Shown: positions 20,380 to 23,335 of the stretch, piece after piece
How the letters are laid out: each line of letters begins with the position of its first letter
How positions within the stretch are numbered: the stretch's first letter is position 1
Assembly: GCA_016177575.1 (NCBI GenBank)
Contig: JACOVA010000036.1
Coordinates: 1-38,873, forward strand
DNA: 38,873 nucleotides
From: Betaproteobacteria bacterium
GTDB lineage: Bacteria; Pseudomonadota; Gammaproteobacteria; Burkholderiales; SG8-39
Direction of reading: 5' to 3'
Notes under the pieces: model-generated
Told to the model about the DNA's origin: nothing
The model's input: the letters and a program-made list of their open reading frames with translations, nothing else
Databases searched by the model: none
Program-made: the position numbers and the translations under genes

Positions 20380-20544
20380 CTACTTCATCGCATCCTTCTT
20401 CATCATCTGGTCCTTCTTCATCATCTCCTCTTTCTTCGTCATTTCCTCCTTTTTCATCATCTCGTCCTTCTGCATGTCGGAGGCGCAGCCGCCCGCCGCA
20501 ACCGCCATGCAACCCGCAAACACCATCGCCAGAAGCTTGCTCAT
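20380..20544 (-). CDS. Small exported Met/Lys repeat protein (MXKDX-like)
   Basis: The 54-residue product has an N-terminal export signal (MSKLLAMVFAGCMAVAAGGC) with two cysteines, C12 and C20, either of which could sit in a loose lipobox. The rest is almost entirely short charged repeats rich in Met, Lys, Asp and Glu. It resembles the proteins annotated as pentapeptide MXKDX repeat proteins, whose function is unknown, but here the unit is six residues (MMKKEE, MTKKEE, MMKKDQ, MMKKDA). The ATG at 20544 is preceded on the minus strand by GGGAG. The gene ends the minus-strand series after the sigma-like gene, 52 nt downstream of it, and may share its transcript. A metal-binding or envelope-stress role is conceivable but unsupported. 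Confidence 0.75.
   Translation of the reverse strand: MSKLLAMVFAGCMAVAAGGCASDMQKDEMMKKEEMTKKEEMMKKDQMMKKDAMK
20389..20460 (-). repeat. 18-nt tandem coding repeats (hexapeptide units)
   Basis: Four imperfect 18-nt units encode the hexads of residues 29-52 (consensus M-x-K-K-[ED]-x) in the small exported protein. On the plus strand they show as recurring TTCTTCATCAT-like blocks. The units differ at synonymous and non-synonymous positions. Confidence 0.75.
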
Positions 20545-20596
20545 GTTGATCTCCCTCGTTGAGGTGGCACGATAAAAAAACGGCGGGACCCAGGCT

Positions 20597-20965
20597 TTAC
20601 GCATGGCGCATCGGGCGAAACCAGCGATCTTCCAGGCCCTGGCGCAGGCGCATGCGGGCGCGATACAGCAGCACCCGCAGGTTGGCCGGCGTCACCTGCA
20701 AGGTCCTGCAGATCTCTTCCCCGCTCAGGCCGTCGAGCTCGCGCAGGCTGAACGCCCGCGCCTGCAGCGGCGGCAGCGCCGCGATGCAGTCGTGAAGCAC
20801 CTGCCGGAACTCGCGCTGCTCGAGCGCCTGTCCCGGCTCGGACCATGGTGTCGGGGCGCCACGCCAGTTGCCGTCGGCGTCAAAGAGGTCGTCGAGCGGA
20901 TCGGCGCCGCCAAGGTCTGCTGCGCCGAGGCGAAAGAGAACGCTGCCGGAAGCGTGTGTGCTCAT
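20597..20965 (-). CDS. Sigma-70-family factor containing only region 4
   Basis: The 122-residue protein matches the C-terminal part of an ECF-like sigma factor: a linker with FDADGNWRGAP and PGQALEQREF (residues 28-53), then region 4 with CIAALPPLQARAFSLRELDG (60-79) and a helix-turn-helix, GLSGEEICRTLQVTPANLRV (79-98), ending in LYRARMRLRQGLEDRWF. The roughly 80-residue region 2 that binds core polymerase and the -10 element is missing; only about 23 residues precede the linker. The start at 20965 has a strong AAGGAG 6 nt upstream, so the short form looks translatable. It could be a stand-alone region-4 regulator, a remnant of a deleted sigma gene, or an assembly deletion. It lies 70 bp after the histidine kinase, behind the CGTGA repeats. 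Confidence 0.7.
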   Translation of the reverse strand: MSTHASGSVLFRLGAADLGGADPLDDLFDADGNWRGAPTPWSEPGQALEQREFRQVLHDCIAALPPLQARAFSLRELDGLSGEEICRTLQVTPANLRVLLYRARMRLRQGLEDRWFRPMRHA

Positions 20966-20995
20966 GGTCGTCTCCTTGTTCCGGAGTTGCCGGGG

Positions 20996-21013
20996 TCTCG
21001 CGATAACGCGAGA
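20996..21013. promoter_or_regulatory. Perfect hairpin in the leader of the sigma-like gene
   Basis: TCTCGCG (20996-21002), ATAA loop, CGCGAGA (21007-21013): a 7-bp perfect inverted repeat between the kinase stop and the sigma-like start, 31 nt upstream of that ATG. No T-run follows on the minus strand. It could be a weak terminator or attenuator, an operator, or a 5' leader structure. Confidence 0.5.
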
Positions 21014-21035
21014 TCGTCAGGCTAACGACCATTTT

Positions 21036-21062
21036 TCACGCCCGCCTCACGGATTCTTCACG
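21036..21062 (-). promoter_or_regulatory. Three CGTGA direct repeats at 11-bp spacing upstream of the sigma-like gene
   Basis: On the minus strand CGTGA occurs three times at exact 11-bp intervals (plus-strand TCACG at 21036, 21047 and 21058). The array overlaps the last codons of the kinase gene and its stop. Tandem half-sites at about 11 bp are the typical layout for OmpR/PhoB-family regulators, and two of the same repeats lie upstream of the adjacent response regulator gene (23304 and 23315). Confidence 0.6.
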
Positions 21063-22553
21063 CGCCGGATTCTGCTCGGCGACGGATCCCCGCGCTGCCG
21101 GCGCGATCGGCAGGCCGAACTCGACGCAGGTCCCCACGCCGGGCGTGCTCGTGAGCGAGACGGTCTGGCCGTGCAGCTCTACGATACGCCGCACGATGGC
21201 AAGCCCGAGGCCGCTGCGCGCGCCCCGCGCCTGGCCGCCGCCCCGGTAGAACCGATCAAAGACGCGCGGCAAATCCTCCACGGCAATGCCGCTGCCGGTA
21301 TCGGCCACGCTGACCCGGATGCGCCGCTCGTCGGGAAGCGTCTCCAGGCTGACGCGACCGCCGGCCGGGGTGTGCCGCAGCGCGTTGTCCAGCAGGTTCT
21401 CGAGCACCCGCTCGATGAGCGCGATGTCCCCGTGCGCGCGTGGCCCCGTCGGATCGAACCGCGTCAGCAACTCGACCCCGGCCTGCTGCGCGCGCAGGCG
21501 AAAGCGCAGCGCCACATCCTGCAGCAGCTCGCTCAAGGCGAAGGCTTCGCGCTGCGGCACGACCGCCCCCGACTCCAGCTTCGAGAGCTCGAACAGGGCG
21601 GCGATCAGCTGCTCCAGGTGCTCGCATTGCCGGCAGGCCGTTTCGAGATATTGCCGGCGGGAATCCTCCGGCAGCCGGGCGCCCTTGAGCAGCACCGTTT
21701 CGAGATAGCCGCGCATCGAGGCGAGCGGGGTGCGCAGATCGTGCGAGACATTGGCGATCAGCTCGCGCCGCAACGCGTCGCCCGCCTTGAGCTCGTGCAG
21801 CTGCCGCTCGATCTGGCGCGTCAGGTCCGCGAACTGGCGATCGAGTACGGCGATCTCGTTGCTCGAGGCGCCGCTCTCCGCGCGCTCGTCCCGGGCGATC
21901 CCCGCCCCGGCAGACCAGGCCTGCATGCGCTGCGCCAGCCCTCGCAGCGGCAGCGTGAGCGCATGAAACAGCCCCGCGCCCACCGCGAACATCGCGAGTA
22001 GCACGGCCGCGGCAATCGTCAGCCCCGTCTGCAGCGTATAGCTGCCGCGGACCGCGGCCGCCACCGACTCGAAACGCGCGCTCCCCAGCACGACGTACAG
22101 GTAACCGGCGAGCGCGCCCTCGGCGTTGACGGGCGCGACCGAGAACACGCGTCGGCGCCTGCTGTCCGTCGGGTCGTCGCCGTACAGCGGCCGCACATCG
22201 TTGTCGGCGAGGAACTGCCGGATCGGCGCGAGATCGACCGCGCGGCGCGCGAGCCGCGCTTGCGGCACGAGGGTGGCGAGGATCCGGCCGTCGGAGGTGA
22301 GCAGGTACACCTCGGCGGAAGGATTCAGCATCATGGCGCGGTCCGCCAGTTCGTTCAGCGCCGCCCGATTGACGCCGCTGCGGCCGATGAGCGCCGTCTG
22401 GTCCGTCACGTACATGGCGATGCCGGCATTCAGGCGCTGCGACACCTCCGCGTGGTAGCGCTCGGTAATCTGCGTCAGCAGAGCGACGAGAACCACCGCG
22501 AGCAGGCCCAGCAGCGCTCCGAAAGTCAGCGTCAGCCGCGTATAGAGGCGCAT
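21036..22553 (-). CDS. Two-component sensor histidine kinase
   Basis: This inner-membrane sensor kinase autophosphorylates and should pass phosphate to the adjacent response regulator. The 505-residue protein has a first membrane helix (about residues 9-27), a periplasmic sensor domain of about 145 residues of unrecognised type, a second helix (about 177-199), a HAMP linker, a HisKA domain with phospho-acceptor H271 in NVSHDLRTPLAS, and a HATPase domain with ENLLDNALRHTP, VADTGSGI and RSGLGLAIVRRI. ATG 22553 lies 8 nt after the regulator stop. A GTG at 22565 overlapping that stop (GTGA) would add four residues. No ligand can be inferred from sequence alone. Confidence 0.93.
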   Translation of the reverse strand: MRLYTRLTLTFGALLGLLAVVLVALLTQITERYHAEVSQRLNAGIAMYVTDQTALIGRSGVNRAALNELADRAMMLNPSAEVYLLTSDGRILATLVPQARLARRAVDLAPIRQFLADNDVRPLYGDDPTDSRRRRVFSVAPVNAEGALAGYLYVVLGSARFESVAAAVRGSYTLQTGLTIAAAVLLAMFAVGAGLFHALTLPLRGLAQRMQAWSAGAGIARDERAESGASSNEIAVLDRQFADLTRQIERQLHELKAGDALRRELIANVSHDLRTPLASMRGYLETVLLKGARLPEDSRRQYLETACRQCEHLEQLIAALFELSKLESGAVVPQREAFALSELLQDVALRFRLRAQQAGVELLTRFDPTGPRAHGDIALIERVLENLLDNALRHTPAGGRVSLETLPDERRIRVSVADTGSGIAVEDLPRVFDRFYRGGGQARGARSGLGLAIVRRIVELHGQTVSLTSTPGVGTCVEFGLPIAPAARGSVAEQNPAREESVRRA

Positions 22554-22561
22554 GCGAGGTT

Positions 22562-23260
22562 TCACGCCGACGCGAAGCGATAGCCCACGCCCCAGATCGT
22601 CAGCAGGTAACGCGGTGCCGTCGGCAACGGCTCGATCTTGGCGCGTAGCCGGTTGATGTGCGAGCTCACCGTGTGCTCGTAAGCCTCGTGCTGCAGGCCC
22701 CATACCTGGTCGAGCAGCTGCGCGCGGGTGAACACGCGTCCCGGATGCTGCGCGAAATGCACCAGCAGATCGAATTCCCGCGCCGTGAGCTCGACTGGCC
22801 TGCCGCCGCAGCGCACGCTCCGCTGCTCGAGATCGATCTCGATCTCCCCTACGCGCAGCATCCGCAGGTTCGACGCGGTACCCGCCGCGAGATGCTGGAC
22901 GCGGCGCAATATCGCTTTCACCCGCGCGATGAACTCGATGACGCTGAAAGGCTTGGTGAGATAGTCGTCCGCCCCGGTCTCGAGGCCGAGCACCCTGTCC
23001 ATTTCCGTAGAGCGGGCGGTCAGCATGAGAATGGGGGTGTACTTGCCCCGGAGGCGCACGCGCCGGCAGAGCTCCAGTCCATCGATGCCGGGCAGCCGCA
23101 GGTCGAGCACCAGGAGGTCCCAGCTGCGGCCGAGCGCCCGCTCGAGACCGGCCACGCCGTCGCTGCAAACGACGACCTCGAGCCCCAGATCCTGCAGATG
23201 CAGCCGGATCAGCTCGGCGATGTCATGATCGTCCTCGACGACCAGAACGCTTCTTTGCAT
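22562..23260 (-). CDS. OmpR/PhoB-family response regulator
   Basis: This DNA-binding regulator is paired with the downstream kinase. The 232-residue protein has a receiver domain with the acidic pocket E9-D10-D11, phospho-acceptor D53 (VLDLRLPG), T81 and K103 (LTKPF). A C-terminal winged helix follows with the family's ELTAREFDLLVHFAQHPGRVFTRAQLLDQVWG and HINRLRAKIEP-type recognition region, ending in IWGVGYRF. The ATG at 23260 has no strong Shine-Dalgarno sequence. Direct CGTGA repeats in its own upstream region suggest autoregulation. The gene leads a minus-strand series of regulator, kinase, sigma-like protein and small exported protein. Confidence 0.94.
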   Translation of the reverse strand: MQRSVLVVEDDHDIAELIRLHLQDLGLEVVVCSDGVAGLERALGRSWDLLVLDLRLPGIDGLELCRRVRLRGKYTPILMLTARSTEMDRVLGLETGADDYLTKPFSVIEFIARVKAILRRVQHLAAGTASNLRMLRVGEIEIDLEQRSVRCGGRPVELTAREFDLLVHFAQHPGRVFTRAQLLDQVWGLQHEAYEHTVSSHINRLRAKIEPLPTAPRYLLTIWGVGYRFASA

Positions 23261-23280
23261 GGCGCGCGCAACGTTACACT

Positions 23281-23319
23281 CGTGAACACTACGATCGAAT
23301 TATTCACGAAATCCTCACG
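23281..23319 (-). promoter_or_regulatory. Candidate autoregulatory site of the response regulator
   Basis: On the minus strand two CGTGA direct repeats are spaced 11 bp (plus TCACG at 23304-23308 and 23315-23319). A 20-bp stretch here, plus-strand TTCACG-n4-CCTCACGGAT at 23303-23322, is matched at 21035-21054 upstream of the sigma-like gene. A plus-strand CGTGAA at 23281-23286 also forms an inverted pair with TTCACG at 23303-23308. A loose -10 (TAACGT on the minus strand) follows before the ATG at 23260. Confidence 0.55.
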
Positions 23320-23335
23320 GATAGGATCTATCCGT
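23317..23335. terminator. 8-bp perfect palindrome at the end of the ATPase gene
   Basis: ACGGATAG (23317-23324), GAT, CTATCCGT (23328-23335) abuts the stop of the DUF4143 ATPase gene and overlaps the response-regulator promoter region. The 3-nt spacer makes a tight hairpin. It may end the ATPase transcript or be a protein-binding palindrome; the sequence does not decide. Confidence 0.4.

Follow-up and report, generated by a model that had tools for sequence, protein, structure and literature searches.

The stretch analysed here (the window; 38,873 nucleotides) belongs to a Betaproteobacteria bacterium (GCA_016177575.1, contig JACOVA010000036.1), whose own assembly comprises 1,955,053 bases and is 64% complete. 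On its minus strand, four genes lie in series, encoding a response regulator, a membrane histidine kinase, a sigma-like protein and a methionine/lysine (Met/Lys)-repeat lipoprotein, in the order given in the initial annotation (coordinates in Table 1). The regulator combines a receiver with a winged-helix domain and adjoins a HisKA/HATPase kinase, the arrangement of the OmpR/PhoB family. It remains under the cut-off of every one of the 25 NCBIfam models listed, and its identity is 52-65% to the six related regulators compared and 37-40% to E. coli CreB, PhoB and HprR. The extracytoplasmic domain of the kinase, judged by eye, spans about 140 residues, and its sensor motif NPxxExYLL...G is conserved across 78 aligned kinases; a sequence search with the sensor region returned no credible relative in the Protein Data Bank.

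Table 1. Genes and candidate regulator sites of the two-component locus (positions in the window)
Feature	Position	Strand	Remarks
OmpR/PhoB-family response regulator, 232 aa	22562..23260	-	Response_reg and Trans_reg_C above Pfam cut-offs
Membrane sensor histidine kinase, 505 aa	21036..22553	-	HisKA and HATPase_c (Pfam)
Sigma region-4-only protein, 122 aa	20597..20965	-	Shine-Dalgarno-like AAGGAG before ATG
Met/Lys-rich predicted lipoprotein, 54 aa	20380..20544	-	35-residue mature part containing 9 Met and 10 Lys (cleavage placed by eye)
Two-copy candidate regulator site CGTGAGGATTTCGTGA	23304..23319	-	begins 58-59 bp ahead of regulator ATG
Three-copy candidate regulator array	21036..21062	-	71-97 bp ahead of sigma-like ATG

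The candidate operators consist of TCACG copies beginning at 21036, 21047 and 21058 and at 23304 and 23315, with the exact 11-bp spacing that the initial annotation had described, and the string TTCACG-n4-CCTCACGGAT that it had found common to both places is present at 21035 and 23303. The arrays read TTCAC-N6-CTCAC(-N6-TTCAC), and the three-copy array shares its sequence in part with the final codons of the kinase gene, whose stop codon occupies 21036-21038. Two further TCACG copies, both unspaced, lie at 22406 inside the kinase gene and at 22562 at the stop of the regulator. Near the regulator and kinase genes, the window holds direct repeats only. The pattern CGTGA-N6-CGTGA occurs 3 times in the window against 0.08 expected from shuffles, and the genome-wide search proposed earlier yields 3 matches in the entire assembly, all of them at this locus, with 0 for the reversed control. 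A search of the same genome for the conserved site gives four one-mismatch places on other contigs; a further match, at C2:6539, falls within an open reading frame and was attributed to chance. Two other elements are found close to the sites: a near-perfect palindrome, CGGATAG-GAT-CTATCCG (23318-23334), which overlaps the edge of the two-copy site just after an AAA_14/DUF4143 ATPase gene, and a hairpin, TCTCGCG-ATAA-CGCGAGA (20996-21013), in the leader ahead of the sigma-like gene.

For comparison, 77 related regulator-kinase loci were gathered by kinase similarity alone, with the window excluded. The set includes 73 loci from searches of 199 relatives, of 399 genomes from the same order and of 369 from the same class, and 4 loci from plasmids. 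The first search contributed all 13 of its places outside the window, the second 20 of its 22 new places and the third 40 of its 61 places outside the window, so that 2 listed places of the second and 21 of the third were left out; from plasmids, 4 of 96 records were taken. Regulators were located in 75 of the 77. Repeats were counted in the 300 bp before the regulator start and from -60 to +300 around the kinase stop. The operator prediction withstands this check of conservation in orthologous loci, as GTGA/TCAC direct repeats with an 11-bp period are present in these zones in 37 of the 77 loci. TCAC direct repeats number 68 sites in 49.6 kb of zones against 46 in the remaining 797.6 kb, a 23.5-fold enrichment, and TCAC ranks first among 136 tetramers for zone enrichment as direct 11-bp repeats. 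When periods from 8 to 24 are compared, 11 is the strongest (37 loci), followed by 22, which equals two periods (20 loci); 10 and 12 are not enriched, and the spacing would place tandem operator copies about one helical turn apart. A plain motif search across 101 genomes gave summed counts of 146 matches against 125 for the reversed control, which is why position-restricted counts were used. Sites at both positions, upstream of the regulator and at the kinase end, are found in 8 of the 77 loci and also in the window, and in one locus (L206) the array starts 25 bp before the kinase stop, exactly as in the window.

A 21-bp matrix trained on the related loci, with the window left out, places the window sites at ranks 1 to 3 (23.98, 16.23 and 9.71, the next score being 9.47); rank 1 is the two-copy site, and ranks 2 and 3 belong to the three-copy array. 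The best of 20 shuffles reaches 19.76, so that only the first site is significant alone. The training sites were chosen by their GTGA cores, and the independent part of this comparison is the spacer and flanks, whose consensus ahead of regulators is nntGTGATgaTTtcGTGATan. A second geometry, the inverted TCAC-N17-GTGA, ranks first of 256 tetramers and occurs in 14 of the 77 loci; 13 of the 14 regulators concerned fall in one supported clade of 20, which also holds most loci with methionine sulfoxide reductase (Msr) genes in the regulator tree. Two operator geometries seem to be in use within one regulator family, the direct repeat of 11-bp period and the inverted TCAC-N17-GTGA. Elsewhere, three-copy TCACG arrays with 11-bp spacing and identical spacers occur in a genome of the window's genus (G010:C17:6158-6185) and in one of its family (G045:C61:23780-23807), and the window kinase has no match in the 12 and 8 kb around them, respectively.

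The two-copy and three-copy sites are very probably operators, and autoregulation by the regulator is predicted with the same strength. The candidate sites also imply control of the downstream pair, a well supported reading of the sequence. Of the earlier prediction of autoregulation and control of the sigma-like gene, the part that stands is the presence of candidate sites ahead of both genes; the control itself is predicted from them.

The genes found beside related kinases point to methionine repair. Of 35 genomes searched, 10 have MxKDx peptides over the model cut-off, and in 6 of them such a peptide is encoded within 5 kb of the kinase; the same distance limit holds for 8 of the 55 MsrA places in these 35 genomes. 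These two distance counts are the clean tests of linkage, rather than a crude Met/Lys detector that was also run. By tblastn, the 77 loci contain MsrA and/or MsrB in 15 cases, MsrP with cytochrome b in 7 and a Spondin_N-like protein in 10; thioredoxin-like and DUF1223 proteins also occur. In three genomes of one family (L193, L196 and L201), the kinase-end site is followed by a DUF1223-type gene and then by an exported fusion of 420-449 aa, in which Met/Lys repeats stand ahead of both an MsrA and an MsrB domain; the two Msr domains were identified by tblastn in all three loci, and the Pfam check of the fusion, like that of the DUF1223 protein, was made in L193 alone. The fusion is a physical link between Met/Lys repeats and methionine repair. 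On an E. coli plasmid, a kinase with 39% identity to that of the window adjoins a cytochrome b, a Mo-oxidoreductase and a Met/Lys-rich peptide. The window system belongs to a widespread proteobacterial two-component family that includes OrhKR-like plasmid systems. Among plasmids, MsrPQ-like genes and a gene for a Met/Lys-rich peptide accompany an OrhKR-like kinase in one locus (L168; E. coli, river water, IncF conjugative), and 96 plasmid records match related kinases (54 Escherichia, 13 Klebsiella, 12 Rahnella).

The lipoprotein of the window carries a signal sequence that resembles that of the MxKDx peptide in L014 (MNKLMTMVFAGCMAVAMGG there, MSKLLAMVFAGCMAVAAGG in the window), and a six-frame search of G000 with TIGR02953 at E 0.01 gave no match. 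Met-rich exported proteins also bind Cu(I), and the locus could accordingly serve copper or silver sensing, with the lipoprotein binding Cu(I)/Ag(I) instead of acting as an oxidant sink. The kinase scores 153.7 bits with the cztS_silS_copS model and the regulator 171.2 bits with cztR_silR_copR, but both values lie far under the model cut-offs (292.55 and 279.2, respectively). No copper gene turned up in the scan, which covered seven proteins of the window, and the genes linked to the relatives include Msr, thioredoxin-like and MxKDx proteins. A metal-sensing role is therefore regarded as unlikely.

The sigma-like protein scores 54.8 bits with Sigma70_r4_2, and region 2 is not detected by Pfam, so that the region 2 and 4 architecture of an extracytoplasmic function (ECF) sigma factor is incomplete. 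It aligns only to positions 89-185 of the 191-position sigma model PRK12520, and the full-length paralogue of the same genome matches it only from paralogue residue 89. Its relatives were taken from the matches listed for the 199 relatives and, at E up to 1e-18, for the 399 order-level genomes. Among these matches, the best are TIGR02943/PRK12520-type sigmas, at most 52% identical, their frames are longer, and no clean region-4-only gene like that of the window was seen. The four shortest frames noticed (132-154 aa; G070, G075, G010 and G295, loci L239-L242) are each preceded, in a different frame, by region-2 sequence, which matches only weakly in G075 (E about 4e-4) and G295 (about 5e-4). 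This layout marks them as genes with an interruption, or as assembly errors, and not as clean region-4-only genes; G010 belongs to the window's genus. Conservation of the exact four-gene order, a check proposed earlier, was not found, the relatives of the sigma fragment being longer among the matches listed, or interrupted.

In 36 other loci of TIGR02943/PRK12520-type sigmas, an anti-sigma gene, sought with a query from L233, is adjacent in 35. In three of the 36 (L014, L025 and L029), all from the window's family, the full-length sigma homologue stands beside MxKDx and MsrP, and two of these three also carry Hsp20 and ArgB. This sigma-MxKDx link was discovered through the control-locus matches of the Met/Lys detector, all 3 of which belong to the 29 sigma-relative loci. 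Within the window, the L233 anti-sigma query matches nothing at the locus or elsewhere, an NrsF-type model not having been searched. A scan of genome contigs with the sigma fragment gives one distant locus. On contig C41 (L092), the window's own genome has a full-length sigma and anti-sigma next to Hsp20 and ArgB, and MxKDx and MsrP were not found in the 7 kb examined there. Sigma and anti-sigma genes of TIGR02943 type are commonly near Hsp20 (24 of 37) and ArgB (27 of 37), the window locus being counted as a miss (L092, L005-L033, L216-L221). Six related loci, which cluster in the regulator tree (96/77 support, not starred), also have an ECF sigma gene in divergent orientation to the regulator; in one of the six, L134, sigma regions 2 and 4 were Pfam-checked.

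The regulator might control only itself and an envelope regulon, with the sigma fragment and the lipoprotein lying as passengers downstream of a kinase-end array whose real target was lost. In favour of this, kinase-end arrays have very different neighbours from one locus to the next (Spondin_N, thioredoxin-like, DUF1223, Msr fusions), and truncation of the sigma gene is paralleled by the interruption of four of its relatives elsewhere. Against this, both small genes retain intact frames, Shine-Dalgarno-like sequences and coding-like base composition at third codon positions (GC3 of 0.83 for the sigma-like gene and 0.85 for the lipoprotein gene), and sigma and MxKDx types co-occur in the three family relatives, which makes this alternative improbable. 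Rather than a working sigma factor, the region-4 gene probably represents a relic or an accessory. A working sigma mimic is unlikely: made with the lipoprotein on activation, the region-4-only protein would bind the anti-sigma of the C41 paralogue or the RNA polymerase flap, a decoy coupling the two-component system to the ECF-sigma regulon. The interrupted relatives make a relic more likely and lower the odds of such a mimic. If true, it would be a transcriptional counterpart of the PhyR sigma-like domain, or half a split sigma such as SigO/RsoA; both are precedents for split or mimic sigma domains (PMC8103513). Among the papers listed by the literature searches, none, judged by title and abstract, concerns this regulator-kinase family with a region-4-only sigma.

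The earlier statement that no system of such composition has been described does not hold, since the published systems OrhK/OrhR and BcrS/BcrX already place a Met-rich peptide of the MxKDx type under a two-component system or an ECF sigma. In Azospira, the SigF/NrsF-MrpX-YedYZ system (Melnyk 2015) is reported to use a full-length ECF sigma with an NrsF-type anti-sigma as the switch for a Met-rich MXKDX-type peptide and MsrPQ-like enzymes, with hypochlorite resistance. In uropathogenic E. coli, the OrhK/OrhR pair (C3564/C3565), found with c3566-c3568, lies beside a Met-rich peptide gene, and OrhR binds its target promoter, with a proposed inverted site TCACA-N15-TGTGA, and also controls MsrQ/MsrP-like genes (PMC8550376). 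In Brucella, BcrS/AbcS-BcrXQP places a Met-rich peptide and MsrPQ-like enzymes under ECF-sigma control and is reported to give hypochlorite resistance (PMC8315932). Both types of system serve hypochlorite or peroxide resistance in these accounts (PMC8550376, PMC8315932), and a review covers BcrS and HprSR-MsrPQ (PMC10151825).

The window shares with OrhK/OrhR the adjacent gene for a Met-rich exported peptide (20380-20544). In a plasmid relative with the same gene content, identity to the window proteins is 39% for the kinase and 52% for the regulator. The window differs in having a region-4 sigma gene, none being named in the excerpt on OrhK/OrhR, in having no match to the MsrP/MsrQ-like pair, and in carrying direct repeats instead of the inverted TCACR-N15-YGTGA; the inverted TCAC-N17-GTGA of the related loci has the geometry of the OrhR site proposed in that excerpt. 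With BcrS/AbcS and SigF/NrsF, the window has in common a sigma gene adjoining a Met-rich MXKDX-type exported peptide. There, however, a full-length ECF sigma and an NrsF-type anti-sigma form the switch, whereas the window has a sigma without region 2, no detected anti-sigma and a two-component array in front. L014, L025 and L029 are near relatives of the window sigma fragment with MxKDx and MsrP, but their sigma is full-length and accompanied by an anti-sigma. CreBC/BlrAB, PhoBR and HprSR likewise have OmpR-family regulators, but the NCBIfam cut-offs of CreB, CreC and PhoB are not reached by the window proteins, and the regulator is 36.7% identical to E. coli HprR, with no MsrP or cytochrome-b match in the window. 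A CreBC/BlrAB-type system is disfavoured and very improbable: the window arrays resemble the cre/blr tag TTCAC-N6-TTCAC of CreB/BlrA, which has the same 11-bp period (PMC3660660), but inexactly. With the CreB model (cut-off 273) the regulator scores 202.9, and with the CreC model (cut-off 356) the kinase scores 153.7. The regulator shares 39.9% of its residues with E. coli CreB, compared with the 52-65% found for the six related regulators, and E. coli CreA and most of the length of CreD match nothing in the window.

Taken as a whole, the locus is best explained as a self-regulating two-component system driving a sacrificial methionine sink at the envelope, with a probability of roughly 60%, and defence against methionine oxidation in the envelope is its probable function. 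The kinase would sense a change outside the inner membrane, most likely oxidant stress of the hypochlorous-acid type or envelope damage. The phosphorylated regulator would then bind the TCAC direct repeats of 11-bp spacing, at the two-copy site ahead of its own gene and at the three-copy array at the 3' end of the kinase gene, and binding would switch on a small downstream unit whose product is the Met/Lys-rich exported lipoprotein. By analogy with MrpX/BcrX, the lipoprotein may act as a sacrificial methionine sink, which reductases made elsewhere may recycle. A full-length ECF sigma of the kind that adjoins MxKDx and MsrP in some family relatives may be the ancestor of the region-4 gene. The sigma-lipoprotein pair looks like a sigma-MrpX module that has been reduced and has come under a two-component array, because the sigma relatives adjoin MxKDx and MsrP, the signal sequences are alike, and no anti-sigma or Msr match is present in the window.

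Several observations weigh against the sink and its regulation as proposed. Near the genes, the strict direct repeat was not found in 40 of the 77 related loci; 49 have either a direct or an inverted site and 28 have neither. The inverted site of the Msr-linked clade was not found in the window, and the window regulator does not group with that clade in a tree whose bootstrap had not settled and which did not fix its position. The lipoprotein, scanned without its first Met, scores 22.9 bits against the cut-off of 41 of the TIGR02953 penta_MxKDx model. The neighbours of the kinase family are broader than methionine repair, Spondin_N and thioredoxin-like proteins being among them, and the crude Met/Lys detector finds matches in 11 of 77 kinase loci (847 kb) against 3 of 59 control loci (180 kb), which is no enrichment per base; one of the 11, L129, looks like an EF-hand protein. 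MsrA, MsrB, MsrP and cytochrome-b queries (the latter two from L121; E 1e-3) match nothing in the whole window, and the only MsrA of the 64% complete assembly is on another contig. Its only PF00174 protein looks, from its length and sequence, more like a sulfite-oxidase type than like MsrP.

ECF sigma/anti-sigma pairs and two-component systems are both known to drive oxidant defence by Met-rich peptides, and the window seems to be a hybrid of the two, with a two-component operator array ahead of a broken sigma gene and its peptide. In conclusion, the system is probably a variant of known envelope-oxidant (bleach-like) protection systems with a truncated sigma built in, and the comparison of loci provides a testable operator consensus for a large regulator family, either direct GTGA-N7-GTGA (37/77) or inverted TCAC-N17-GTGA (14/77).

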